Part shown: one piece after another, positions 1 through 18,113 of the stretch
How positions within the stretch are numbered: position 1 is the stretch's first letter
Layout: each line of letters opens with the position of its first letter
Source of the DNA: Chrysochromulina tobinii
Lineage: Eukaryota; Haptophyta; Prymnesiales; Chrysochromulinaceae
Reading direction: 5' to 3'
Assembly: GCA_001275005.1 (NCBI GenBank)
Contig: JWZX01002655.1
Coordinates: forward strand, 1 to 25,954
DNA length: 25,954 nt
The notes under the pieces: model-generated
Databases searched by the model: none
The model's input: the letters and a program-made list of their open reading frames with translations, nothing else
Told to the model about the DNA's origin: nothing
Made by a program: the position numbers and the translations under genes

Positions 1-2308
1 AGGGGGGGGAGGAGGAGGAGGGGAGCGCCCACCACGGCGCGGGCGGCGCCGCCCACGGCGAGGGCGCGGCCAACGCCTCCACCGAGGCGCCCTCCAATGC
101 CACCTCCGCCCCGTCGCACCCCCCAGCCAAGAAGCGCAGCAGCAGCAGCAGCGGCGGCGCTTCGGGCAGCAGCCACGCGGCCAACAGCACAGCGGCGTCG
201 ACCGTTGCGAACGCGATCAAGACTTGCCCCGCCTGTGGGGAAATCAACCCTCTCGCCCGCCTCTCGTGCCGCCTGTGCGCGGCCAAATTCTCGATCCCCC
301 CTTGCCTTGCATGCACACGCTCACCACGGCGCGCCTTCCTTCTTCCCCACAGGTGCGCGGCCAAATTCTCGGTCCGTCAAACCTCCCAATTGCTCCAGCA
401 GCCCTCACGGCCCATGAACGGGGCCAGCGGCGAGGTGCGCTACGCCGAGCTTGAGACGGGCCTTGACGAATCTTCCCTCTGATGATTTCTGAGGCCCCCT
501 TGATTGCCTCCCTCATCAGGTGCGCTACGCCGAGCTTGAGACGGGCCTTGACGAATCTTCCCTCGGGCCTTCATCCGATCCATGCTCCTCCGAGGTGTCG
601 GCCCTAGCTTTCCAACGGCTGCCCAAGGAGGCACAGATCCAGGTGTGAAGCCACCTGTGAAGCACCTCTGATGGACTCGATAGACCTCTGATGCCCTCTG
701 ATGCACCTCTGATGGCCTCTGATGATTTCTGACGACCCCTTGATGGCTCCCCTCATCAGGTGATGCAAGAGAAGGCAGCGCACCGTCTCCTCGCCCAAAC
801 GCTCCACCAGCAGGTCGTCGAAGAGTTGCACAAGAACCCCGAGCTCGCTGCTGACCCCGAGCAGCAGGTGGAGACTTGCCTCTATTGCCTCTGATTGCCT
901 CTGATTGCCTCGGATTGCCTCGGATTGCCTCTAATTGACGAGCCTCGTCACTCCATGAGCAGCTCCAATTCAAACGGCCTCGGATTGCCTCTGATTGCCT
1001 CTGATTGCCTCTAATTGACGAGCCTCGTCACTCCATGAGCAGCTCCAATTCAAACGGCCTCGGATTGCCTCTGATTGCCTCTGATTGCCTCTAATTGACG
1101 AGCCTCGTCACTCCATGAGCAGCTCCAATTCAAACGGCTGGCGCAGCAGCAGCTCCTCTATCAGATGGCTCTCGCTACCCAAGCGGCCGCTGCGCCTTCG
1201 GACGCCCACGGCGGCGGCCACGGCGGCGGCGTGGGCGCTTATTTAGACGACGAGGAGGAGGAGGCTATGTATGCCACGTACGACCTCGGAGGCGCGCGCG
1301 GAGGGTGCGGCGATTGCCACTGATGAGCTCTGATGACGTCTGATGAGGCCTGATGACGCCTGATGACGCTCAATGGTCTCCTTCATCAGGTATGGCGATC
1401 GGGCGGACTACGAAGGCGACGACCGTTACAGCGCCGGAGACGGTCCAAGAAATGGCCTCGGGAGCGCGCACGGTGTGGGGCACGGTGTGGGGCGGGGGGG
1501 CGGCGGCGGCGGCGGCAGCGGCTGGATGAGAGAATCTCGAGATTCGTTCACGCGACTGGCGGAATGGGTCGACGATGATCTGGGAGGTCATCAGAGAGGT
1601 CATCAGGGAGGTCATCAGGCGGAATGGGTCGACGATGATCAGCCGTTGCCGCGCAACAGCGAGCGCAACGGCGACCGTTTTGGCATCGCGGGCGGCGGCG
1701 GCATGGGCGCCGTCATGGGCGGCCTTGGGCGCGGTCAGTGGGATGATCCCTTCGAAGCGGATGTCAAGGCGCTCGTCAACGCCACCCTCGGCGGTGGCGG
1801 CGGGCGTGCTTCAGGCAGGGGAGGAGGTCGCAAGGGGGCTGGCCAGGGCCGCAGCTTCGCCTCCCATCAGAAGCACCAGAAGCACGCCTCACTCCTGGCG
1901 CTCGACTTCGCCGCCGAGTCCATCGAGCTCAACGACAGCGACATCATGGACCTGGCCGGCATCGGCGGTGGGCACGGGCGGCCCGCCGGCGCCGTGTCGG
2001 GCGCCAAGGGGCTCAAGCGAGCCGGTCTCGCCTCGCCCCCCGCCGGCCACCTCGGCGCCCAGCACGGCGCCTCGTGGAAGCGGATACGCTTGCAGCTGTG
2101 CGGCGCGCGAGCGCACGTGGCGACCGGTAAGAGCGGCGCTCAGCACGGCGCTGGGCTCGCCAAGGGGAGCTCGGGCGCTCAGCACGGCGCGTCCACCAAG
2201 TCGGCGGGACGGTCGGTGAGTAGTGACCACTTGGGGTCCGCCGCGGCGGCGTCGCTCACCATGAGCAACGGCGGCTCGAGCAGCAGCGGCGGCGGCGGCG
2301 GCAAAGGC

Positions 2309-2358
<50 letters not shown>

Positions 2359-5016
2359 TGGCCTTTATGCCCCAGAGCGCCCGCCGCCCAAGCGCCGCGG
2401 CTGGTTAACTGAGAGGGAAGAGCAGGAGGCACTCTCATCGGTCAAGTTCCCGCCATCGGCCGCCTCGGCGCGACTCCTCCGCCAGCTGGCAGACTTCAAC
2501 CCTTCGGGCAAGGTGGATCCGGCGGCGAATGTACGTGCTCGCCTCCATGCCCTCTTGATTGTATTGTTGATTGCGTCTCTTGATTGCGAATGTGCGTGCT
2601 CGCCTCCATGCCCTCTTGATTGCGTCTCTTGATTGCGTCTCTTGATTGCGTCTCTTGATTGCACTCTTGATTGCACTCTTGATTGCGTCTCTCAATTGCC
2701 TCCCTCGATGCCCTCCCTCGATGGCAACTGATGGGCTCTGATTGCCTCCCTCCTCAGATGCTCCTGCCCAATGAGCACGACGCCAAGGAGCGCGGCGAGA
2801 GCTGGCGGCTGCCCTCGACGGATCTGCTCGCCGTCGTCAAGGAGCGCGCGCGCGCCCAGGACGACGCGCGCGCCCAGTACGACGCGCGCGCCCAGGACGA
2901 CGCTCGGAACGGGACGAAGCAGGACGACGCCGCCGACGGCGACGAGGGCGCGGATGAGGACGACGACTTCGACGATCACCACGGCGACGGCGACGACGAC
3001 GAGGACGATGCTGACGGTGCTGCAGACGAGAGCGACAGCGGCGGCTACGGCGGCGGCTACGGCGGCTATGGCTATGGCGGCAAGGGAGGCGGCGGAATGC
3101 CCCTCGGCAGCGGGCCCAAGCTCCGGCGCGAGATTTCGGTGTCGGCGGTGGATGCTCTGTCGGCGATGCACACGGACCCCTCGGACCACTATGGCGGCGG
3201 CTATGGCGGCGGCTATGGCGGCGGCAGCAGCGGTGGCGGCCGGAGCGGCGGCGGTGGTGGCGGCGGCGGCTACGGCGATAATCTCGGCGATTATCTCGGC
3301 GCGGGCCAAAAGCTTCGACGCGATATTTCGGTCAATGCGGTCGACGCGCTCACCGCGATGCACTCGCACTCGACATATCACGACGGATCCCACTACGGCG
3401 CTGACGGCGGCGGCGGCTACGAGGGCGGCGGCGGCGGCGGCGGCGGCGGCGCGGCGGCGCAGTCCACTGTGAGTAGCCGCGCCTCAAGCTCGGGCGGTGC
3501 CCTTGCAGCGATGCTCTCGGACTCGCGCCCACCACAGCGCCCAGCCGCTGGTGCACACGGCGGCGGCGGCTATGGTGGCGGCGGCTACGGTGGCGGCGGC
3601 TACGGCGGCTACGGCGGCATGGGCGCCGGCATCGGGGGCGGCGGTATGGGGGGCGGTATGGGGGCTGCACCCGCCTATTCACCGTCCAACTGCTTGGGTA
3701 CGCCTAATATGGATACGCCTCGAGGCTTGGAGGCTGCCCTGACGAAACTGTGCTCGCACCTGCCTAATATGGATAGCCCAGGAGGGTTGGAGGCCGCCCT
3801 GTGCGCGGCGAACTTGTCGACGCCCGAGGACGTCGTGCACCAGCTGCTCATGGAGGCGCGGCGGACGTACAGCGCCGTCTCGGGTAGCGCCGTCTCGGGC
3901 AGCGCCGTCTCGGGCAGCGCCGTCTCGGGCGCCGAGGACGCCGTGCACCAGCTGCTCATGGAGGCGCGGCGGACGTACAGCCTCGGCGAAGGCGCGGCGG
4001 TCCCGCCCGAGACGGCGCCCCTCGGTGTGAATGGATTCACTCTTCACAGCGAGGGCAGCCACGGTGCTGCCGAGCACACGGCGCTCGAGTTCGGTGTGAA
4101 GAGCCCACGGTGTGAAGAGCACACGGCGCTCGAGTTCGCATGCGATGGCAGCCAAGGTGCCCACGACGGCGCTCAGCTGCCCATGACGGCGCTCGAGTTT
4201 GCATGCGGCCTCTCTTCGGCCTCGGGCTCGTTTGAATTAGGGCGGGAAGAGGCTCTCACGATGGCCGCGCGTGCCGCGCCGCTCTCCTGGGACGAGGGGC
4301 ACGATGCGGGCGCCGTCTTGGGCGCCGACTCGCTCGCGGGGGACGCCCTCTCCGCTGGCGGCGACGCCGCCGTTTCCACCGAGCCTGGTGGGCGTCCTGA
4401 GCGCCGTACTGAGCGCTCACCACGGCGCGCATGGCTGTCCGAGCCGCACGGGGCCTCAGATGTGATCATGTCCCTACCTCATCTCGCGAGCGATCTCGCA
4501 GGCGCTCACCACGGCGCGACCGAGGCCGCCGCGCCGAGTACGGATCCGAGGACGGAGGATGACGTGGCAGAAGAGCTCCTCTTCCGTCTTCCGCCGCTTC
4601 CCTCCTCCGCATCCTCCGTCGGAAGGGCGATGGACGGCGCGCAGTACGGCGCTCAGTACGGCGCTCGGTACGGCGCGAGCGCCCTCACGAATGAATTCGA
4701 GTCGTCCCCAACGAACCCCGCTGTGAACCTCGCTGTGAACCTCGCGAATGAATTCGAGTCGTCCCCAACGCCCGCCTCCGCCGCCCTACTTCCCTCGGCC
4801 GATGCCGCCGCGCCGTCATGGGCGCCAACCCTACTGATCGCGTCACTGCTGAACAGCGACGGCAGCAGCTGCTGCCCCGCGGCCGGCGGACTGCCCACAC
4901 TTGAGCTCGGTGTGAACGGGCACATGCCCACACTTGAGCACGGTGTGAACGGGCACATGCCCACACTTGAGCACGGTGTGAACGGGCACAGCGCCCTGAG
5001 CGATATGCTCGTGTGA
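1..5016 (+). CDS. Large low-complexity Gly/Ala-rich protein with N-proximal zinc ribbon (5' partial)
   Basis: Exons 1-274 (open from the window edge, first full codon at base 3), 353-434, 520-642, 760-867, 1123-1304, 1390-2530 and 2758-5016 join in frame into about 1388 residues ending in TGA. Exon 1 encodes an acidic/Ser-rich stretch, then KTCPACG...SCRLCAAKF, a C-x2-C-x10-C-x2-C zinc ribbon that resembles the small UPF0547/C16orf87-type finger. Exons 3-5 give a Gln/Leu-rich helical segment (FQRLPKEAQIQVMQEKAAHR, then LQFKRLAQQQLLYQMALATQ). The rest is Gly/Tyr-rich (GYGGGYGGYGYGG) and acidic, with duplicated modules: KLRR[ED]ISV[SN]AVDAL twice, VHQLLMEARRTYS twice, SAVSG x4 and PTLEHGVNGHM x3. 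Every junction keeps the frame, which strongly supports the gene model. I do not recognise the whole protein; binding of nucleic acid or protein is only a guess from composition. The true start lies upstream of the window. Confidence 0.8.
275..352 (+). other. Intron 1 of zinc-ribbon gene (exon-copy intron)
   Basis: A GT...AG intron of 78 nt. Its first 19 bases, GTGCGCGGCCAAATTCTCG, are identical to the first 19 bases of the next exon at 353. It ends TTCCCCACAG. It also contains one copy (318-332) of a short motif that is coding elsewhere in the gene. Confidence 0.85.
435..519 (+). other. Intron 2 of zinc-ribbon gene (45-nt exon copy)
   Basis: A GT...AG intron of 85 nt. Bases 435-479 are identical over 45 nt to exon bases 520-564. 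The remaining 40 nt are a filler with TGATGATTTCTGA and TTGATTGCCTCCCTCATCAG. Reading through without splicing reaches TGA just after the copy. Confidence 0.9.
643..759 (+). other. Intron 3 of zinc-ribbon gene
   Basis: A GT...AG intron of 117 nt made largely of CTCTGATGxxCT units. It ends TGGCTCCCCTCATCAG and shares TGATGATTTCTGA with intron 2. Its first bases (GTGTGAAG) may be a decayed copy of exon start GTGATGCAAG, but this needs gaps. Confidence 0.85.
868..1122 (+). repeat. Intron 4 of zinc-ribbon gene with an 80-bp tandem repeat
   Basis: A 255-nt intron between CAG|GTGGAG and ATGAGCAG|CTCC. It is filled by GGATTGCCTCTGATTGCC units and an exact 80-bp periodicity: CTCCAATTCAAACGGC starts at 963, 1043 and 1123. 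The third copy is the start of exon 5, so each repeat carries the acceptor plus the first 16 exon bases. The upstream acceptors would lead to a stop within about 14 codons. Confidence 0.8.
1305..1389 (+). other. Intron 5 of zinc-ribbon gene
   Basis: An 85-nt GT...AG intron with five TGATGA(C/G)-type units and end TGGTCTCCTTCATCAG. It starts GTGCGGCGAT against exon start GTATGGCGAT (8 of 10), a probable decayed exon copy. Splicing restores the frame (phase 2). Confidence 0.8.
1559..1640 (+). repeat. 60-bp in-frame tandem duplication inside exon 6
   Basis: GCGGAATGGGTCGACGATGA plus TC occurs at 1559-1580 and again at 1619-1640, exactly 60 bases apart. The spacer holds GGTCATCAG three times. 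As protein it reads AEWVDDDLGGHQRGHQGGHQ followed by AEWVDDDQ. A GT at 1567 and an AG at 1618 would allow removal of about 51-52 nt, so it also has the parts of an intron. Confidence 0.85.
2531..2757 (+). other. Intron 6 of zinc-ribbon gene with duplicated donor
   Basis: A 227-nt intron between GCGAAT|GTACGT and CCTCCTCAG|ATG. The exon end plus donor is repeated 61 nt downstream (GCGAAT GTGCGTGCTCGCC from 2586) with over 30 nt of near identity. The middle is TTGATTGCGTCTC repeated. No convincing copy of the downstream exon start is present. Confidence 0.8.
3871..3930 (+). repeat. 15-bp coding tandem repeat, SAVSG x4
   Basis: Four head-to-tail copies of AGCGCCGTCTCGGG plus T or C. They lie between two copies of the longer VHQLLMEARRTYS module in exon 7 of the zinc-ribbon gene. 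Confidence 0.9.
4894..4992 (+). repeat. 33-bp coding tandem repeat, PTLEHGVNGHM x3
   Basis: Three copies with a period of 33 (starts 4894, 4927 and 4960), the last diverging at its end. Each unit contains GGGCACATGCCC, a near palindrome. The array encodes the C-terminus just before SALSDMLV and the stop. Confidence 0.9.
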
Positions 5017-5163
5017 GAAGCTCGGGGGCTCAGTTGCCATATTAGGCGACGTATTGGTGGGAGCAGCGCACGTGCTCACCTCGGACGGCTCAGTTGCTGT
5101 GAACCTCGCTGTGAACCTCGATGGTCGACCTCATTGAACAGTTCGTGCGCAGGCGCTCGCTCT

Positions 5164-5244
5164 AGTACTGCTCAATACGGCGCTCACTCGAGTACTGCTC
5201 AATCCGGCGCTCACTCGAGTACTGCTCAATACGGCGCTCTGAGG
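5164..5244 (+). repeat. 27-bp tandem repeat x3
   Basis: The unit AGTACTGCTCAATACGGCGC plus TCACTCG starts at 5164, 5191 and 5218. It includes the CTCAATACGGCGCT form of the dispersed motif seen in the coding exons upstream. It is noncoding in the present gene model. Confidence 0.85.
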
Positions 5245-5380
5245 ACTGCCGGCTCGACGGCTCACCGTTCTGTGTCGAAGTGCTCGGTCACGTGAGACGG
5301 CGGCAGCGGCGGCGCTCGAGGAGACGCCAAACAGAGCGCAGGCAGTGCAATTTTGAGGAGAGGCCAGAAGGCCGTTGTAA

Positions 5381-5470
5381 CGACCGTTACAGAGGCGGCG
5401 CCATGAGCGACCGTTACAGAGGCGGCGCCATGAGCGACCGTTACAGAGGCGGCGCCATGAGCGATCGTTA
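5381..5470 (+). repeat. 27-bp tandem repeat x3 with GTAACG/CGTTAC ends
   Basis: The unit CGACCGTTACAGAGGCGGCG plus CCATGAG starts at 5381, 5408 and 5435, with a partial fourth copy CGATCGTTAC. The first unit is preceded by GTAACGACCGTTAC, an inverted repeat around a 2-bp centre. Confidence 0.85.
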
Positions 5471-6168
5471 CCCTCTAAAGAGAGTAGATGCATGCTTGAT
5501 GCTACTGAGGAGCACATGCCGACTGGAGAGGAGAGGATCGAGAGACAGAGAGCATGCATGGAGCGCATTTAGCCTACCCTGGAGTCCCCCCCGAGCCCCG
5601 CGCCCCCCGAATCCCCCGAGTCCCTCGGATCGTGGATCGAGTCCCCCATAACACCCCAACCCTCGTAGAATACCATCGCGCATGGCATACAGTAATTATC
5701 GCCACGCAAGAGGATTGGTGGGCCGTTGCATACTGTCTTGATTTATAATGAAATACTTTTAGTTTTACTTGAATGTAATCCCCTCCTCACGTCAAACCGG
5801 TCCGGTCGGCTGCCGCCCTCTCGGTGTCGGTCGCTCGGGCGGATGTCGGTCGGGTTGTCGCGCGCAGTTTCGAGTTATGCATGGAGTTATGCGATTGCGT
5901 GGTTCTTTGGGCAGTCGGCAGAGTTTATTTGTTGGGCTCGCGCTTTACACCGCACCGGCCCGCCGGCTGCCGTGCCTCTTGGAACCCCTCGGCAACGTAG
6001 CCACGTGTGCACAGGCCGTCTTATATTAAATACTTACTTACTTGACGCACGGACGAGCGAGGGACGCGACTAGCGCGCCGTGTTAGGCTCGCTCGCCATT
6101 CTGCGGCCACTGCCTAGGCAGAAGCGTGCACCATTCTTCATGGAACAGGCCCTCGAGTCGCTGAAACG

Positions 6169-7117
6169 TCAGACCATCTTGCTGTCCCAATTCGCATCCA
6201 GGCCATCAAAGAGATTGATCGGCGGTGGCCCCGCATAGCCCTTCGGGGCCTTCTCGCACGCGAGCTCAAACGTGGTGCACGCGCACTGTGGGGAAAGTGC
6301 GGCGAGCACGCACACGGTCGCGAGGTCGGCCCGAGTGGTCGCTGCGCCTTTGAGGAAGTGGCGATTTGTCTGTCCGACTTTGGGGATGCCGGCGAGCGCG
6401 GGCCCATGGGTGAGACGGCCTGGCCTGACGATCGTGTACTCCATGCCGGAGCGTCGGAGAAGCTTTTCACCGTCTGCCTTCAAGTCCATCGCGCCTGATC
6501 AGGGAGGCAGTCCACATGCAATCAGAGAGATTCGGAGCCAATCAGAGGGCAAGCACTCGCAATCATAGGCCATCCGAGGCCATCCGAGGCCATCAGAGGC
6601 CATCAGAGGCCATCGCGCCTTTTTGCTTCTTGAAGAACTTGCCCGTTATGACGTTGTTGAGAATGAGGCGGATGAAGACGTCTTTGTTAATCGGATCCAC
6701 GAGTTGGCTCGAGCAGAGCAGGTACCGCTGGCAGCCGGCCGCCTTGGCCATGGCTGCCGTCGCGCCCACCGCGTTGCAGTCCACCGCGACGCAGGCCTCG
6801 TATGATCGGCCGGCGGAGGTGTTGAAGACAAGTGTGGCTCCCGCGAAGACGGCTTTGAGCTCCTCTTCATCCGCGTGCTGTAGGTCGCCGGCCACAATCT
6901 TGCACCTTGGGTCCTCAGGAAAAGTTCCAGACGCCACCTTCGACGGGTCCCTCACGACGGCCCGGACCTCGCTTACCGACTGTTTCGCGAGCAAGGCTTT
7001 GACGACCTCCTTGCCGGCGCCGCCTCGCGCGCCAAGCACGACGGCTACAATGGTGCCCTCGCCGAGGGGAGCGCCGCCCGCCAAGGCCTCCGTGGTTGAG
7101 GTCGATTCCTTATGCAT
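6169..7117 (-). CDS. Atypical short-chain dehydrogenase/reductase (NAD(P)-binding, NmrA/SDR_a-like)
   Basis: Exons 7117-6619 and 6494-6169 join in frame into 274 residues. The N-terminus has VVLGARGGAGKEVV, a GxxGxxG-type dinucleotide-binding loop at about residues 29-35 after a beta strand, then AVVRDPSK, GDLQ, VFNTSAGRSYEACVAVD and CQRYLLCSSQL. The second exon has the family-typical MEYTIVRPGRL. This is the atypical SDR group of NAD(P)-binding Rossmann proteins, like the small plant plastid and cytosolic proteins of unknown substrate. Length is normal for a single Rossmann domain. The ATG at 7117 is chosen because the Rossmann strand begins 20 residues later; a targeting peptide is not obvious. 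Substrate and pathway cannot be told from sequence. The gene is divergent from the sulfotransferase gene. Confidence 0.85.
6495..6618 (-). other. GC-AG intron of the SDR gene
   Basis: A 124-nt intron with AAAAAG|GCGCGATGG at the donor and CTGATCAG|GCGCGATGG at the acceptor. The nine bases after each border are identical. The interior is TGATGGCCTC/GGATGGCCTC repeats, ending GACTGCCTCCCTGATCAG. The splice gives KKQKGAMDLK in frame. No GT donor gives the frame here. Confidence 0.8.
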
Positions 7118-7371
7118 TTCTCAGCGTGTGGGGTGTAAAAGACTCGTGTATAAACTTTTTTCCTAACTCGAAAGCCTGGATGTCGACACTATCTCTAACT
7201 CTCCAACACTGCGCCTGAAGCTTGACAAAAGAAGTGTCCCCCTTGTTTTATCCACATTTAAGTAATCACTCCCTACTTCTCTTTTTGGTATCGCGCACTC
7301 CCGACAAACGCGTATCGTTCGTTCGCGGCGTCTCATCTGCCTGAGGTCTCGGCAGCCGCGTGACGGGCCCC
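7118..7371. promoter_or_regulatory. Divergent intergenic promoter region
   Basis: 254 bp separate the SDR start (minus) and the sulfotransferase start (plus), the most AT-rich part of the neighbourhood. TATAAA reads on the plus strand at 7149-7154, about 220 bp before the sulfotransferase ATG. Use as a promoter is inferred from the divergent layout only. Confidence 0.4.
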
Positions 7372-9890
7372 ATGTCCTCACTCGTGGCCAATGTCCGATG
7401 GACTCGGGAGCAGTGGGAAGAAGGGATGCGGGCCGTGCTGGATCGGGAGCAGTGGGATGCCCGCAGGAACGCCGAGCTCATCGCCAAAGCTCCGACATTA
7501 TCCAGCCTCATCGATCACAGAGGCAGTGCTGAGTACAGCGAAACCTGGACGGCCCCGACGCGCTATGTTCAGCAGCACATACCTACGCGTCCACTCGAGG
7601 AGGTGGCTCGCTTCAACCCACTCTCGCCCACGCACCGCGCTCCTATTCTGCCCACGCTCTTCATGCCCGGCTTTCCCAAGTCGGCGACCTCGTGGTTGTA
7701 TGGCTGCCTGCTCCATGCATTCAGCCCAGAAGCCGTCGGCTGCGGTCGGCATGCACATCGATGGGGCGCGGACAAGTGCCCTCACCGCTTTGCCATGACC
7801 GCACTCTATTCTACCGCTCGCGGTGAGTTTCGCGAGAAGAAGGAGCTCTTCTACTTTGGCGGCATCAAGGGGGACGAGCAGTTCCGGTTCCGGCACGATC
7901 TGATGGACCTGCATGGACCCGACCCGACCGTGCCGCACCTACCACCCCTCTGGCCTTGGGATTATCGCATCGGCACGATGGTGTCGAAGCGCGAGATGCT
8001 GCATGCCATGTGTTCGAAGAGTGTCCACTCGCAGTCTTGCCTGCTCGAGCGTCGCGACAAGAACTGCACGGCGGCAACCTGCAGCGAGCCCTGCGCTCTG
8101 CCTCCCCGCTGCTCCAACTTGGGTACCGCGGCTTGTGAGGATCCGCATTGGGCCAAGTTCAGGTTCAGATGCAAGGCGCAAGGCAGCAACAAGCCACTCC
8201 CGAGCAGTGGCTGCTACCACCCAGCTTGCGTGCGCACGGCCCCGGCGAGCCCGCAGTTCTCGGGCCAGTTCCTCAAGTGCGCCTGGGACCGTGCGTTTGC
8301 GTTCCAAGGGCGGGGCGCGATCACGAAGGAGGCCTATTGCGTGCACTCCTTGCTGCCGTGGGCGAAGAAGGACGAGCTGAACGTGAGTGTCGTGGACTTC
8401 ACGCCCAATTACATTTGCGACGCGGATGCGATGAGGCGGCTGCATGAGGGGGCTGCCGGCCAGCGCGGTCGGCTACGCTTCATCGTCGTGATGCGCGATC
8501 CGATCATGCGTGCCTTCTCGGAGTGGGCCATGTTCTCACTCGGTTGGAATTGGGATCCGGTCAAGAACTTCTCCGCGTCGATGGCCTTCAAGATACGAGA
8601 CCTGAAGGAGTGTAACGAAACCCTCTTCAATCGGCCCGACTTGCTGCGCCACCTGCCCACCGAAGAGGTGGCCCAATACATGCGCAGCTGCTTCCGATAC
8701 GGCGCGGCCACCATGTACCCGACCACGTCGATGTACAGCGTGTGCATGTTGCATGCGCTGCGCTACTTCCGACGCGACCAGTTCTTGGTGCTTCGGTATG
8801 CGGATCTGATGCGGTGGTTGGATGCTTGGCTGATGCTCGGCTGATTGCGGTTGGATGCTCGGCTGATGCTCGGCTGATTGCGGTTGGATGCTCGGCTGAT
8901 GCTCGGCTGATTGCGCCTGAGGGTCTCTCTGATGGCCTCCCTCATTAGCGCCTGAGGGTCTCACTGATGGCCTCCCTCATTAGCGCCTGAGGGTCTCACT
9001 GATGGCCTCCCTCATTAGCGCCTGAGGGTCTCACTGATGGCCTCCCTCATTAGCGCCTGAGGGTCTCTCTGATGGCCTCCCTCATTAGCGCCTGAGGGTC
9101 TCTCTGATGGCCTCCCTCATCAGGTATGAGGATCTCATGCGGATGGATGCGAACACAATCGTCTCGACCCTCTCGAACTTCACTGGACTTCACCTGAGCA
9201 GTCGGATGAAGAATGTCCCCCAGTGCCAGCCCGCGACAAAGAGGTACAAGAAGTCCAAGAGCGCGAACGGCTCTCAAGCGACAAAGGAGCAAGGCAAGCC
9301 CACACTTCACCCTTCTGAGTGCCTTCTGAGTGCCTCTCTGAGTGCCTCTCTGAGTGCCTTTCTGATTGCCTCCCTTATCAGGCAAGCCCAACTCGTACTC
9401 GTCCATCACGCCCTATGCCGCCGAGATGCTCGAGGAAGCTTCGGCCCCTCTGGAGCGCTTCTTTGCCCCGTACAACCAACTGCTGCGGGAGATCATTGGG
9501 CCAACCTTTGGATGGGAAGCGAAGGACCATCGGAAGAGACCCCTCAGCCCGGAGCAGAAGGCAGAAGCGCTCGCCGCCTTCGAAAAGGGCCTCGCGCAGC
9601 AGCGGAACCGGCAGGTGAGCCGACGGACCGCCGAGAAGGCGAAACCAAGGCGATTCTGAGTGCATGCTGATTGCATCCCTCATCAGGTGAGCCGACGGAT
9701 CGCCGAGAAGGCGAAGGCCGACGAGATCCGCGCAAAGACGAGCCGTGGCGTCGTCATTCCTGTCGAGAAATTGCCTAGGGTAAGCTCCCCAAGCGAGCGT
9801 GGGCGCGGACGGGGTCGCGGCCGGCGCGGACTTAAGCGCTTGAACCGAATGCTTTCCACGACCTCGGATCGAACTCAAGTGCTGGCCTAG
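7372..9890 (+). CDS. Carbohydrate-type sulfotransferase with Cys-rich insert
   Basis: Exons 7372-8795, 9124-9293, 9382-9614 and 9687-9890 join in frame into 676 residues. PGFPKSATSWL at residues 99-109 is the 5'-phosphosulfate (PAPS) loop. VVDFTPNY and FIVVMRDPIMRAFSEW (RDP at 375) form the second half of the family signature, the 3'-phosphate binding site. FLVLRYEDLMRMDANTIVST spans the first junction and is the conserved C-terminal YEDL segment, which proves that splice. Such enzymes move sulfate from PAPS to sugar hydroxyls, usually in the Golgi. No N-terminal membrane anchor is visible, unlike most. Residues about 214-303 form an insert with 11 cysteines. The C-terminal ~140 residues are Lys/Arg/Glu-rich and end in a GRGRGRGRRG-like tract. 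The start is the first ATG in frame. A GTAAGC at 9780 could be another donor, leaving the last exon uncertain. Confidence 0.85.
8796..9123 (+). repeat. Sulfotransferase intron 1: decayed exon copy plus two tandem arrays
   Basis: 328 nt. It begins GTATGCGGATCTGATGCGG against exon start GTATGAGGATCTCATGCGG (17 of 19), so the unspliced read YADLMRW mimics the true YEDLMRM. Next come three 33-bp units (8816-8914, GGTTGGATGCTCGGCTGATG...) and six 35-bp units (8913-9122, starts 8913, 8948, 8983, 9018, 9053, 9088). Each 35-bp unit ends CCTCCCTCATTAGC, except the last, which ends CCTCCCTCATCAG|G and is the acceptor. Confidence 0.9.
9294..9381 (+). other. Sulfotransferase intron 2, GC-AG
   Basis: 88 nt, with GAGCAAG|GCAAGCCCA at the donor and TTATCAG|GCAAGCCCA at the acceptor. 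Nine bases are identical on both sides. The interior is TCTGAGTGCCT units, then GATTGCCTCCCTTATCAG. The only in-frame solution with this repeat uses a GC donor. Confidence 0.8.
9615..9686 (+). other. Sulfotransferase intron 3, 29-nt exon copy
   Basis: 72 nt. It starts GTGAGCCGACGGACCGCCGA and matches exon 4 from 9687 at 28 of 29 positions, then CTGAGTGCATGCTGATTGCATCCCTCATCAG-type filler. Nearly half of the intron is copied exon. Read-through meets TGA at the intron's own filler. Confidence 0.9.
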
Positions 9891-15746: not shown

Positions 15747-18113
15747 TCACTTGAGGTCCTGAAGGAAGACGACGACGACTGTCGTGTTGTCGTCGGTGCC
15801 ACGGTCGAGCGCCTCGGTGAGCAGCCGTTTGGCGAGCATGTCGGGCGACTTGGCCGTGTGGTTACAGCAGTGAAGCACGCGCTCGGGCGACATGACATCC
15901 CATAGCCCGTCCGATGCGAGGATGATGGCCTTATCCACACTCGTGCGTTCAACCGTGTGGATCTCCGGCTCGGAGCTCAGACCGAGATGGCGCAGCGGAC
16001 GGTCGCCAATACAGCGCGTGACCTGGTGTGAACGGTGAATGGTCACGTGCATCTATCATAAGCAATCAGGGTTGGCAATCAGAGGCAATCAGAGGCCATC
16101 CGAGGCTCACTTGAATGATGCCACCCACTCGCATCTTGCCGTCCTTGGTGGTCGACACTGTCGCGCCCGCTGCCTCGACGCGCGCACGCTCCGCAGGCAA
16201 AGCGGCCGTGTGTTCCTGAGTCAGCCGGATGAGCTCCTCGCCGCGCCACAGATGACACTGGCAGTCGCCCGCGTTGGCGAGCCACACGCTGTGGGGAGTG
16301 CACACGGCTGCGAGGGCTGTGCAGCCCGAGTCGTCCGCACCGGCGCTGCGTAGGAAGCCTTCGTGCAGAGCGATGAAGGTGGCCTGCAGCGCCGTACCGG
16401 GCACCCTCGCCGCGAGGACGTGCTCCGGAATGCATGCTGGATCGCCTTCCTTATTAGGTGCGACCCGAGTCATCTCGATGGCATGCGTCCATTGATGAAG
16501 CAAGAGCTCGGGGAGGCACTTGCGGCAGAACTCGGCGCACGCATCGCCATTGTGCCTGCGTCATGGTGGCAGGACGTGAGGAGACGGGCACTCACGTGCA
16601 AGCAGGGGCTTCATCAGACGCCTGCAAGCAGGGGCTTCATCAGACGCCTGCAAGCAGGGGCTTCATCAGACGCCTGCAAGCAGGGGCTTCATCAGACGCA
16701 ATCCGCACACCCATCAAAGACAGCCGCGAGCGCCACGCCCGGGCGAGAGCAGAGCACATGACGATCCTCCATCCGATCGGCGCCTCGGCGCCCGGCGCTC
16801 GCCTCCCAACCGACACGCATCATTGGTGCACCTTCCTTATTAGGTGCACCACTCAAGCCGAGCAGGGAGCTCAGCCCATCGACGAAACCCAGCAGGTCAC
16901 TCAGGGCTGGCGCCGTGGCGGGCGCCATGGCGGGCGCCGTGTTGGGCACCGAGACGGGCGCCGTGACGGGTGCGGCGGAGGTAGGATCTCCAGCGGCCTT
17001 GGCGGCCGCATGCAAGTCTGATTCGTGCGCCATTGGTACCAGAAAAGGCAAGTCCGCTCGCGAGGCTGTTCCCCACAGCCCGAGCGCCACCGACAGCGCA
17101 ACGTCGAGCGAGCTCAGAATCTCGGGCAATGTCGGCCGAGATCCCGGGTCATTGGACCAGCAGCGCGCCGCCAGCGCCGCCGCCGCGTCAAGCGCGGGCG
17201 CGGCCTTGTCCGGTGCAGCTCCACCCACGCCGACACCAAATGACGAGCGCTGCGCTGGGCGCAGGCCTTCGGCGGTGATAGCCGCCGTGAGTAAGTCGTG
17301 ATTGTACCTGAGATGGCACTCGTTGGCCATCAGTGGCCATCAGCGACCATCAACGACCATCAGCGGCCATCAGTGGCCATCAGTGGGCCTCACGCACCGT
17401 GCCTCGAGGATGGTGTGAAGCTGCACTTGCTCCGTCATGGCGTCCGAATACGGTACCGTCTGCGTGAGCACCTCGTTCAGCGCGATGCCGAAGGAGTAGA
17501 CGTCGCACGCGCGGGTGTAGGCGGCGCCACGCACTGAGCGGAGCAGCTCGGGCGCCATGTACGGCAGCGTGCCCACCACGAACTGCTTGAAGAACCCACC
17601 CGTGGGCCTTGCTTGCGTGGTGATGTCCGCTGTGATGAGCGCTTCGGATTCGGCGGCGTTGAGGTCGGCGAGCACGGCACGCCCACCCTCGTCCACGAGC
17701 ACATTGTCCGTCTTGACGTCGCGGTGCAGCACGCCGCACGCGTGCAGATGCGCAAGCGCTCCAACCACGTCGTGGCAGATGGCTAGCTTTGCCGCCCCGG
17801 TGAGCGTGCGACCGGATGCGTGGAGCAGGCTGAAGAGGCTTCCGCGCGCATAGACTGGCAGCACGAGCGCATAGACTGGCGGCGACCGCACCAGCCCATA
17901 CGGGCAGACGAGATTCTCGTGTCGGCACATCTCCAAGAACCCAACCTCCTTCTCGAAGCGCTTCATGTCGCCGGGGCACGTGATTTTCGTGCGTTTGATG
18001 ACGACCTCCGCACCGGTGTCGTTGTGCGTCGTGATGTAGACGTCCGAGGAGCCGGAGGCGTGCAATGTGCGAACGCGCGTGCGCGTGAACGTGGAGAAGT
18101 CGACCTGCTTCAT
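15747..18113 (-). CDS. Protein kinase - PP2C phosphatase fusion
   Basis: Exons 18113-17398, 17307-16711, 16555-16111 and 16022-15747 join in frame into 677 residues. The kinase spans about 15-306: HASGSSDVY for the glycine loop, lysine in VVIKRTK (40), HRDVKTDN (130-137), DLN in place of DFG (150), GTLPYMAPELL, DVYSFGIALNE and RCWSNDPGSRPTLPEILSSL. A Pro/Ala/Val linker runs to about 395. The PP2C domain spans about 401-677: ADRMEDRH, AVFDGHNGDACAEF across a splice, DDSGCTA, ANAGDC, GGIIQVTRCIGDR across a splice, ILASDGLWDVMS and DRGTDDNTTVVVV. All metal-binding acidic residues of the phosphatase are present, so it looks active; the kinase keeps the DFG Asp but has lost Phe and Gly. Plants have a comparable kinase/PP2C fusion. 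One protein would add and remove phosphate. The upstream frame is open without ATG, so a 5' exon is possible. Confidence 0.85.
16023..16110 (-). other. Kinase-PP2C intron 3
   Basis: 88 nt, ATTCAA|GTGAGCC to CACACCAG|GTCACG. It begins with CTCGGATGGCCTCTGATTGCC-type units near the donor. Splicing yields GGIIQVTRCIGD, the conserved PP2C segment. No clear exon copy. Confidence 0.85.
16556..16710 (-). repeat. Kinase-PP2C intron 2 with 26-bp array
   Basis: 155 nt, GATGG|GTGTGCGG to GACGCAG|GCACAATGG. Splicing restores FDGHNGDACAEF. Four 26-bp units (plus-strand starts 16598, 16624, 16650, 16676; GCAAGCAGGGGCTTCATCAG + ACGCCT) fill the donor-side half. On the minus strand each unit reads CTGATGAAGCCCCTGCTTGC, and CAGG follows in three of the four, an acceptor-like site. 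Confidence 0.85.
17308..17397 (-). repeat. Kinase-PP2C intron 1 with 10-bp array
   Basis: 90 nt, GCACG|GTGCGTGAGG to CCATCTCAG|GTACAATC. The interior is about six CTGATGGCCA units. Splicing restores LEARYNHDLLTAAI in the kinase C-lobe. Confidence 0.85.

Follow-up and report, generated by a model that had tools for sequence, protein, structure and literature searches.

Introduction

How new introns originate is a long-standing open question. The closest described systems are the introners, for which target duplications of 3–9 bp have been reported (Gozashti et al. 2022, PMC9860276). One introner family, from Chrysochromulina sp., makes a 4 bp duplication and carries its own 5' splice site, and the survey that describes it requires that likeness start no more than 10 bases from both intron ends and drops low-complexity families (PMC9860276). 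In another set, of 213 introns, the repeats measure 4–30 bp, with a mean of 11.4 (PMC11782384). We consider here a stretch of 25,954 nucleotides from the freshwater haptophyte Chrysochromulina tobinii (contig JWZX01002655.1; hereafter the window), in which several introns begin with a copy of the start of the next exon, together with similar introns elsewhere in the 53.15 Mb genome assembly, which consists of 2253 contigs, the window being contig 1499 among them. They are probably recently gained spliceosomal introns that arose from very small introner-like elements, inserted with a long target duplication.

Results

Anatomy of the introns and the two families of elements

In the introns of the window (Table 1), an element lies between two direct copies of host exon. 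The first copy and the element together make up the intron, and the second copy opens the next exon, so that the donor (GT, sometimes GC) comes from the target and the acceptor AG from the element. The first-pass annotation had called six copies of exon starts inside introns, and all six are present with the positions and lengths it gave; in each of these pairs, copy 1 directly follows the exon and begins with GT or GC, and copy 2 directly follows AG. That the copies occur in several genes, on both strands, and with variable length is likewise borne out. An intron beginning at 1305, which had been taken for a decayed case, does resemble the next exon at its start, a match that by itself is no proof. 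A seventh pair of copies (1558–1580 and 1618–1640) comes in addition to those reported. The filler between them contains GAGGTCATCAG units, i.e., units of family 1 (described below) in the opposite sense. It may be part of a GC-AG intron of 60 nt, or else of an exonic insertion of that length that keeps the frame.

Table 1. Introns and related units in the window, with the positions of the duplicated exon sequence
Feature	Positions	Strand	Copy 1	Element	Copy 2	Identity of copies	Remarks
Intron 1, family 2	275..352	+	275–293	~309–352	353–371	19/19	copy 2 is the next exon start
Intron 2, family 1	435..519	+	435–479	480–519	520–564	45/45	47 including shared AG
Intron with family-1 type acceptor	1305..1389	+				9/12 by eye, alone not significant	possible decayed copy at start; next exon from 1390
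Seventh copy-filler-copy unit	1558..1640	+	1558–1580		1618–1640	23/23	
Intron of NAD(P)-binding protein gene, family-1 type	6495..6618	-	6618–6610		6494–6486	9/9	11 with AG
Intron A, sulfotransferase-like gene, family-1 acceptor	8796..9123	+	8796–8814		9124–9142	17/19	protein joint
Intron B, sulfotransferase-like gene, family-1 type, GC donor	9294..9381	+	9294–9302		9382–9390	9/9	11 with AG; protein joint
Intron C, sulfotransferase-like gene, family 1	9615..9686	+	9615–9643	9644–9686	9687–9715	28/29	protein joint

Aligned side by side, the introns of the window have a common 3' end, and two families of elements can be told apart. Family 1, mostly about 40–60 bp in size, is an array of TGATTGC/TGATGAC units ending in CCCTCATCAG, of which there are 2889 exact ends in the 53 Mb genome, as against 35 for the reversed control word; GCCTCCCTCATCAGG occurs 1324 times, its reverse not at all. 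Family 2 (37–54 bp) runs from GCATGCAAGTGCTCACCACGGCGC to CCCCACAG and, searched as GTGCTCACCACGGCGC, 3–30 bases, CCCCACAGG, gives 457 exact matches in the genome and none reversed. As is expected of introners, near-identical sequence thus stands at many intron positions. The left end of family 2 is sharp: it lies at GCATGC in introns whose duplications range from 24 to 47 nt. Its unit appears in variant form in intron 1 of the window, where the core of the element measures 44 nt and begins 34 nt from the donor. There are further acceptor variants with the same anatomy (L037, L057, L027).

Copies against chance

The first-pass annotation had proposed that intron starts be compared with the starts of the following exons and with shuffled pairs. 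Run on sampled introns of element type, this comparison gave a large excess. Most of the loci were fetched because they contain an element, only 100 kb being unselected (a sample with 9 family-1 and 2 family-2 acceptors). With a copy score of at least 12 as the limit for calling an exon-start copy in an intron, copies were found in 27 of 50 family-2 introns and in none of 500 shuffled pairs, in 12 of 28 family-1 introns drawn afresh from those listed for the genome (0/280 shuffled), and in 81 of all 156 family-1 acceptors sampled (1.7% of 1560 shuffled). In 73 of those 156, the copy lies within the last 130 nt and ends at least 15 nt before the acceptor. Scores of at least 9 occur in 0.6–3.5% of shuffles; a single 9-nt copy is weak evidence.

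At other AG sites, used as a control, namely TCAG and ACAG before GT or GC, the counts were 19/219 and 14/167, several of the cases being arrays or variant elements. Exon sequence taken 50 nt further downstream matched in 2 of 13 cases for family 2 and 20 of 137 for all of family 1, owing to long duplications and arrays. Gapped alignment of family 1 placed only 31 of 127 cases above the 99% shuffle level with a start within 3 nt of the exon; in this test, the repeats of the element pair with one another and the strict cut is biased to long copies. Neither open frames nor third-position GC around the joined flanks (78 rows) told sense apart from antisense.

Restoration of proteins

At four sites in the window, removal of copy 1 plus element restores the protein of relatives. 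The exon joins 8795/9124, 9293/9382, and 9614/9687 give a sulfotransferase-like protein of 675 residues, which aligns across all three joints with P0002, P0003, P0005, P0038, and P0040, and which matches PF00685 with 21.5 bits, slightly below the cut-off of 22. Its best relative named by NCBI is from Prymnesium parvum (P0005, 52%), while the near-identical P0001, like the window, reads into an intron at the first of the three joints. On the minus strand, the NAD(P)-binding gene matches PF13460, and the join 6619/6494 gives KKQKGAMDLKADGEKLLRRSG, which is identical in P0080, close in P0081–P0083, and less so in P0088, all of them unbroken. The intron at the 6495–6618 site is retained in P0084–P0087, the closest relatives of this gene, with differing numbers of repeat units, and the length of the element array therefore changes quickly. 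The gene matches P0084 at 99% over 62% of its length; P0084 carries, at its source, the name Chrysochromulina OHIO genome (Chrpa1), which we take to be C. parva. Together with the Prymnesium match, this places the host among the haptophytes, near C. parva or within that species. Absence from relatives, a property of introners, is thus found at four sites, with unbroken relatives that are mostly metagenome-derived and in part possibly transcripts; P0005 is an annotated protein.

Length of the duplication and its joints

The lengths of 9–45 nt given by the first-pass annotation are variable as claimed, with a range that is partly the result of decay, for the 28 duplications of family 2 that can be measured span 24–47 nt. 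These come from gapped alignment, in which 33 of 49 family-2 introns lie above the 95% level of 490 shuffles and 18 above the shuffle maximum. The distance from donor to element could be read in 28 of the 49 (mean 36.2 nt, standard deviation 5.9). The remaining 21 were excluded from the length statistic, 6 as weak and 15 with an alignment start at least 58 nt from the element; the 15 comprise arrays, chance matches, and one likely longer duplication (L102), whose inclusion would raise the upper limit. Both families together provide 30 exact copies of at least 18 nt, with lengths of 18–46 nt and one of 77 nt, and hence no single length. Of 73 copies in family 1, 24 show full identity over at least 20 nt, and the gain is thus recent. 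Family-2 introns with a copy are 69–93 nt long in 25 of 27 cases. The lower limit of the duplication may be that of the shortest spliceable intron, and the spread at insertion may have been wider than the spread observed. In two respects, these introns depart from introners as described: the duplication is not a short one of 3–9 bp, as reported for several families, and likeness between introns does not reach both borders, as the survey requires, the first 24–47 nt being a copy of the target.

A G stands directly left of copy 1 in 52 of 62 cases in family 1 and 20 of 27 in family 2. Nine of the 30 exact copies lead straight into TGAT, and eight of the nine end in C, a base common to the CTGAT unit; this pattern was noticed in hindsight, and no fewer than two of the nine belong to a single gene.

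Target site, strand, and local likeness

Exact family-2 copies (n = 474) are followed by G in 457 instances and by GT in 406, GT making up 0.052 of the dinucleotides in the unselected 100 kb. G follows 2415 of the 2889 family-1 ends. With tight arrays excluded, GT or GC opens the copy in 25/27 (family 2) and 49/62 (family 1), and so, as in some introners, a splice site is taken from the duplicated target. Two copies that begin otherwise (L057 870–956, L116 194–261) contain, by eye, an apparent donor 27 nt into the copy. Its use would add nine codons, and proteins may in this way be lengthened by some of the gains.

For each family, strand was compared over the first 100 places listed. Of the neighbors separated by 200–3000 bp, 55 of 57 pairs share a strand, as against 12 of 22 for pairs farther apart, and pairs across the families within 3 kb agree in 28 of 31. 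Nearby elements are also alike. Between different introns within 3 kb, the likeness of family-1 elements is 0.592 vs 0.525 expected (163 pairs, those sharing an exon start excluded; 0/2000 permutations), and family-2 spacers point in the same direction, with a mean distance of 0.40 in 23 close pairs vs 0.51 (62 typed places). Shared gene history may contribute to this likeness.

Related sequences

The window contains long introns made of family-1-like tandem units at 8796–9123 and 885–1140 (periods of 35 bp and 80 bp), and at ~16591–16700 a tandem repeat of 26 bp containing CATCAG units. Elsewhere there are arrays of the form copy-element-copy-element-copy (L081, L049, L020, L120, L122; C107, C158), with a unit spacing of about 70–80 bp, which probably reflect unequal exchange between copies. 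Family-2 cores flanked by copies and lacking the usual AG end occur at L098 ~136–196 and L090 ~172, and splice signals may therefore be dispensable at some stages of joining.

In the genome as a whole, the family-2 word GCTCACCACGGCGC is found 1413 times (2 for the reversed control), far above the 474 exact introns. Its copies in the window (4416–4428, 4505–4517) lie within an open reading frame, in GAHHGA-like protein repeats, and at C8:7302–7405 copies are spaced 18 bp apart. The family-2 introner and the coding repeat with this word may have a common origin. Neither element pattern has an exact match in the viral collection. Rfam, applied to six loci, yielded four sub-threshold matches to CD-box small nucleolar RNA (snoRNA), the best with 27 bits against 41 required. 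They fall in family-1 arrays (L054 1092–1533; L042 9133–9182), and the snoRNA identity was rejected as a chance likeness of TGATGA/CTGA units.

Discussion

How might an element of this size produce a duplication nearly as long as itself? We infer that insertion proceeds by the filling of a staggered opening 20–50 nt wide. An element of about 40 bases would enter a staggered nick or break of roughly that width in a gene, its AG end would be joined against the GT side of the target, and fill-in of both overhangs would leave a long and variable duplication. The consensus of the branch point is YTNAY, and the element would bring its own, CTGAT and CTCAC both fitting. At the upstream joint, a base would often be common to the copy and the element, in the manner of microhomology joining or priming, and the inserts were probably copied locally, since they tend to be similar to nearby introns. 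Insertion may have gone by target-primed synthesis, by repair synthesis that used a nearby intron, or by reverse splicing and strand displacement; the first two, as copy-in routes, are favored. Of the marks of a target-primed retrotransposon, the variable duplication and the constant 3' end are present, and 5'-truncated copies are not: family 2 has its sharp left end, and family 1 varies in the number of units.

The first-pass annotation had preferred staggered breaks to a transposase with a fixed duplication. A single short fixed duplication indeed does not fit, the spread of lengths arguing against any transposase of fixed offset. But accidental breaks with random filler do not suffice, because the filler consists of two recurrent elements, one with a sharp left end, and strand lock and the likeness of nearby elements go beyond what plain break repair predicts.

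Several observations weigh against the insertion of small elements with long target duplication. About half of the introns of element type have no copy. A scan for direct repeats that was not tied to the acceptor of an element found, in 126 kb, AG before copy 2 in 11 cases and other dinucleotides in 1–11, and in all fetched DNA 62 for AG and 28–51 for others, an excess that is not clear because local tandem repeats dominate such a scan. Copies that do not start with GT or GC number 13/62 in family 1 and 2/27 in family 2; among 12 of these, some are arrays, some look decayed, and some have a possible internal donor. Copies outside genes seem rare, as only 17 of 474 family-2 copies lack a G after AG; free insertion followed by selection would lead one to expect many copies without GT outside genes, and their scarcity speaks for a preference at entry or for fast loss. 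The genome has 26 matches to reverse transcriptase (RVT_1), 22 of them above the cut-off, which counts in favor of insertion, but none of the 26 was tied to the elements, transposases not having been searched for; the endonuclease of the LINE type (Exo_endo_phos_2) has only one match in the genome. Finally, splicing itself is predicted from protein likeness.

Template switching during replication or repair has a small chance of being the better account. Stalled synthesis would jump to a nearby intron, copy its 3' part, and return at AG/GT microhomology, with no need of a mobile element, the likeness of elements being the trace of local copying. Nearby elements are in fact alike, the G so often found left of copy 1 makes AG/GT or G/GT common with the end of the donor intron, and the C shared at the upstream joint in eight of the nine cases leading straight into TGAT would be natural. 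Random jumps, however, should enter at many points and bring along parts of the donor's exon copy, and they sit poorly with a GCATGC left end that stays sharp across duplications of 24 to 47 nt.

An equally low probability may be given to reverse splicing, in which what inserts is an excised intron's 3' part, returned to the DNA of its own or a neighboring gene. The AG end would attack a G/GT site on the open sense strand; strand displacement would then lengthen the freed exon end by 24–47 nt, and to this new end the intron fragment would be joined by its 5' end. If true, this one route would explain why the joint is exactly AG/GT, why GT is required, and why the strand is locked, and it would account for local copying, the long, variable duplication, and the same anatomy of two unrelated elements. 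The filler at 1558–1640 is in the opposite sense, though, and the sharp left end of family 2 would require a fixed fragment.

Gain of the kind described in Daphnia, by accidental staggered breaks and end joining with whatever filler is available, is improbable here. It predicts variable direct repeats beside splice sites, which are present, and repeats of 4–12 bp are reported from Daphnia (PMC4202315). It also predicts unrelated filler, whereas two elements recur; nor does it account for the strand lock, and the repeats are several times longer. Still less can be said for tandem duplication of an exon stretch containing AGGT, with the second copy spliced out. The copy-element arrays (e.g., L081, L049, L120) might be taken as its trace, but the part next to the acceptor is element, not exon, in the family-1 and family-2 introns read, and arrays fit later unequal exchange between copies, which contradicts tandem duplication as the first step. 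Least probable of all is a cut-and-paste DNA transposon of the type usual among introners, making a short duplication of fixed length. In its favor are the many copies with fixed ends and the published introners that supply a 3' site and obtain their 5' site from the duplication (PMC9860276), but it is hard to square with exact copies of 18 to 46 nt and family-2 duplications of 24–47 nt, without a single length.

If the introns did arise by insertion of small elements with long target duplication, then one small genome, with thousands of acceptors of element type, offers the footprint of insertion in readable form in about half of those sampled. The footprint records how long the duplication is and on which strand it lies, together with both joints and the probable donor, and so models of break repair, target priming, and reverse splicing become directly testable.

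The nearest parallels outside intron biology are two. Short elements mobilized by LINEs have variable target duplications, a constant 3' end, and microhomology at the upstream joint, as here; the present elements differ in being bound to the gene strand and to GT, in their size of about 40 bp, and in that no 5' truncation is seen in family 2 and no mobilizing partner was found. In the insertion of CRISPR spacers, about 40 bp enter and some 30–45 bp are duplicated, a likeness in geometry only: no kinship is claimed, and the targets here vary from site to site.

Among intron gains, the new introns of Daphnia likewise contain a direct repeat of the exon end, ascribed to staggered breaks, but the repeats are the shorter ones mentioned above, and the consulted parts of that account describe no recurrent element (PMC4202315). 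The introner elements of Amoebophrya share repeated introns and direct repeats at the borders; there, the direct repeats measure 3–5 nt, and inverted repeats and non-canonical borders are found (PMC7789003). Within the openly licensed literature searched, no long-duplication introners are reported from a haptophyte. Introners at large have in common with the present elements a sequence repeated at many intron positions and insertion into coding DNA, and some published families pair a 3' site from the element with a 5' site from the duplicated target; the difference lies in a duplication that is variable and measures 24–47 nt, around an element of about 40 bp (PMC9860276). Judging from the criteria of the survey, the largest, rather than from its data, introns such as these would probably be removed by it, and intron gain of this kind may therefore be undercounted (PMC9860276). 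The pairing of a target 5' site with an element 3' site was thus known. What is new is introner-type intron gain in which the target duplications far exceed the reported ones in length and in variability.

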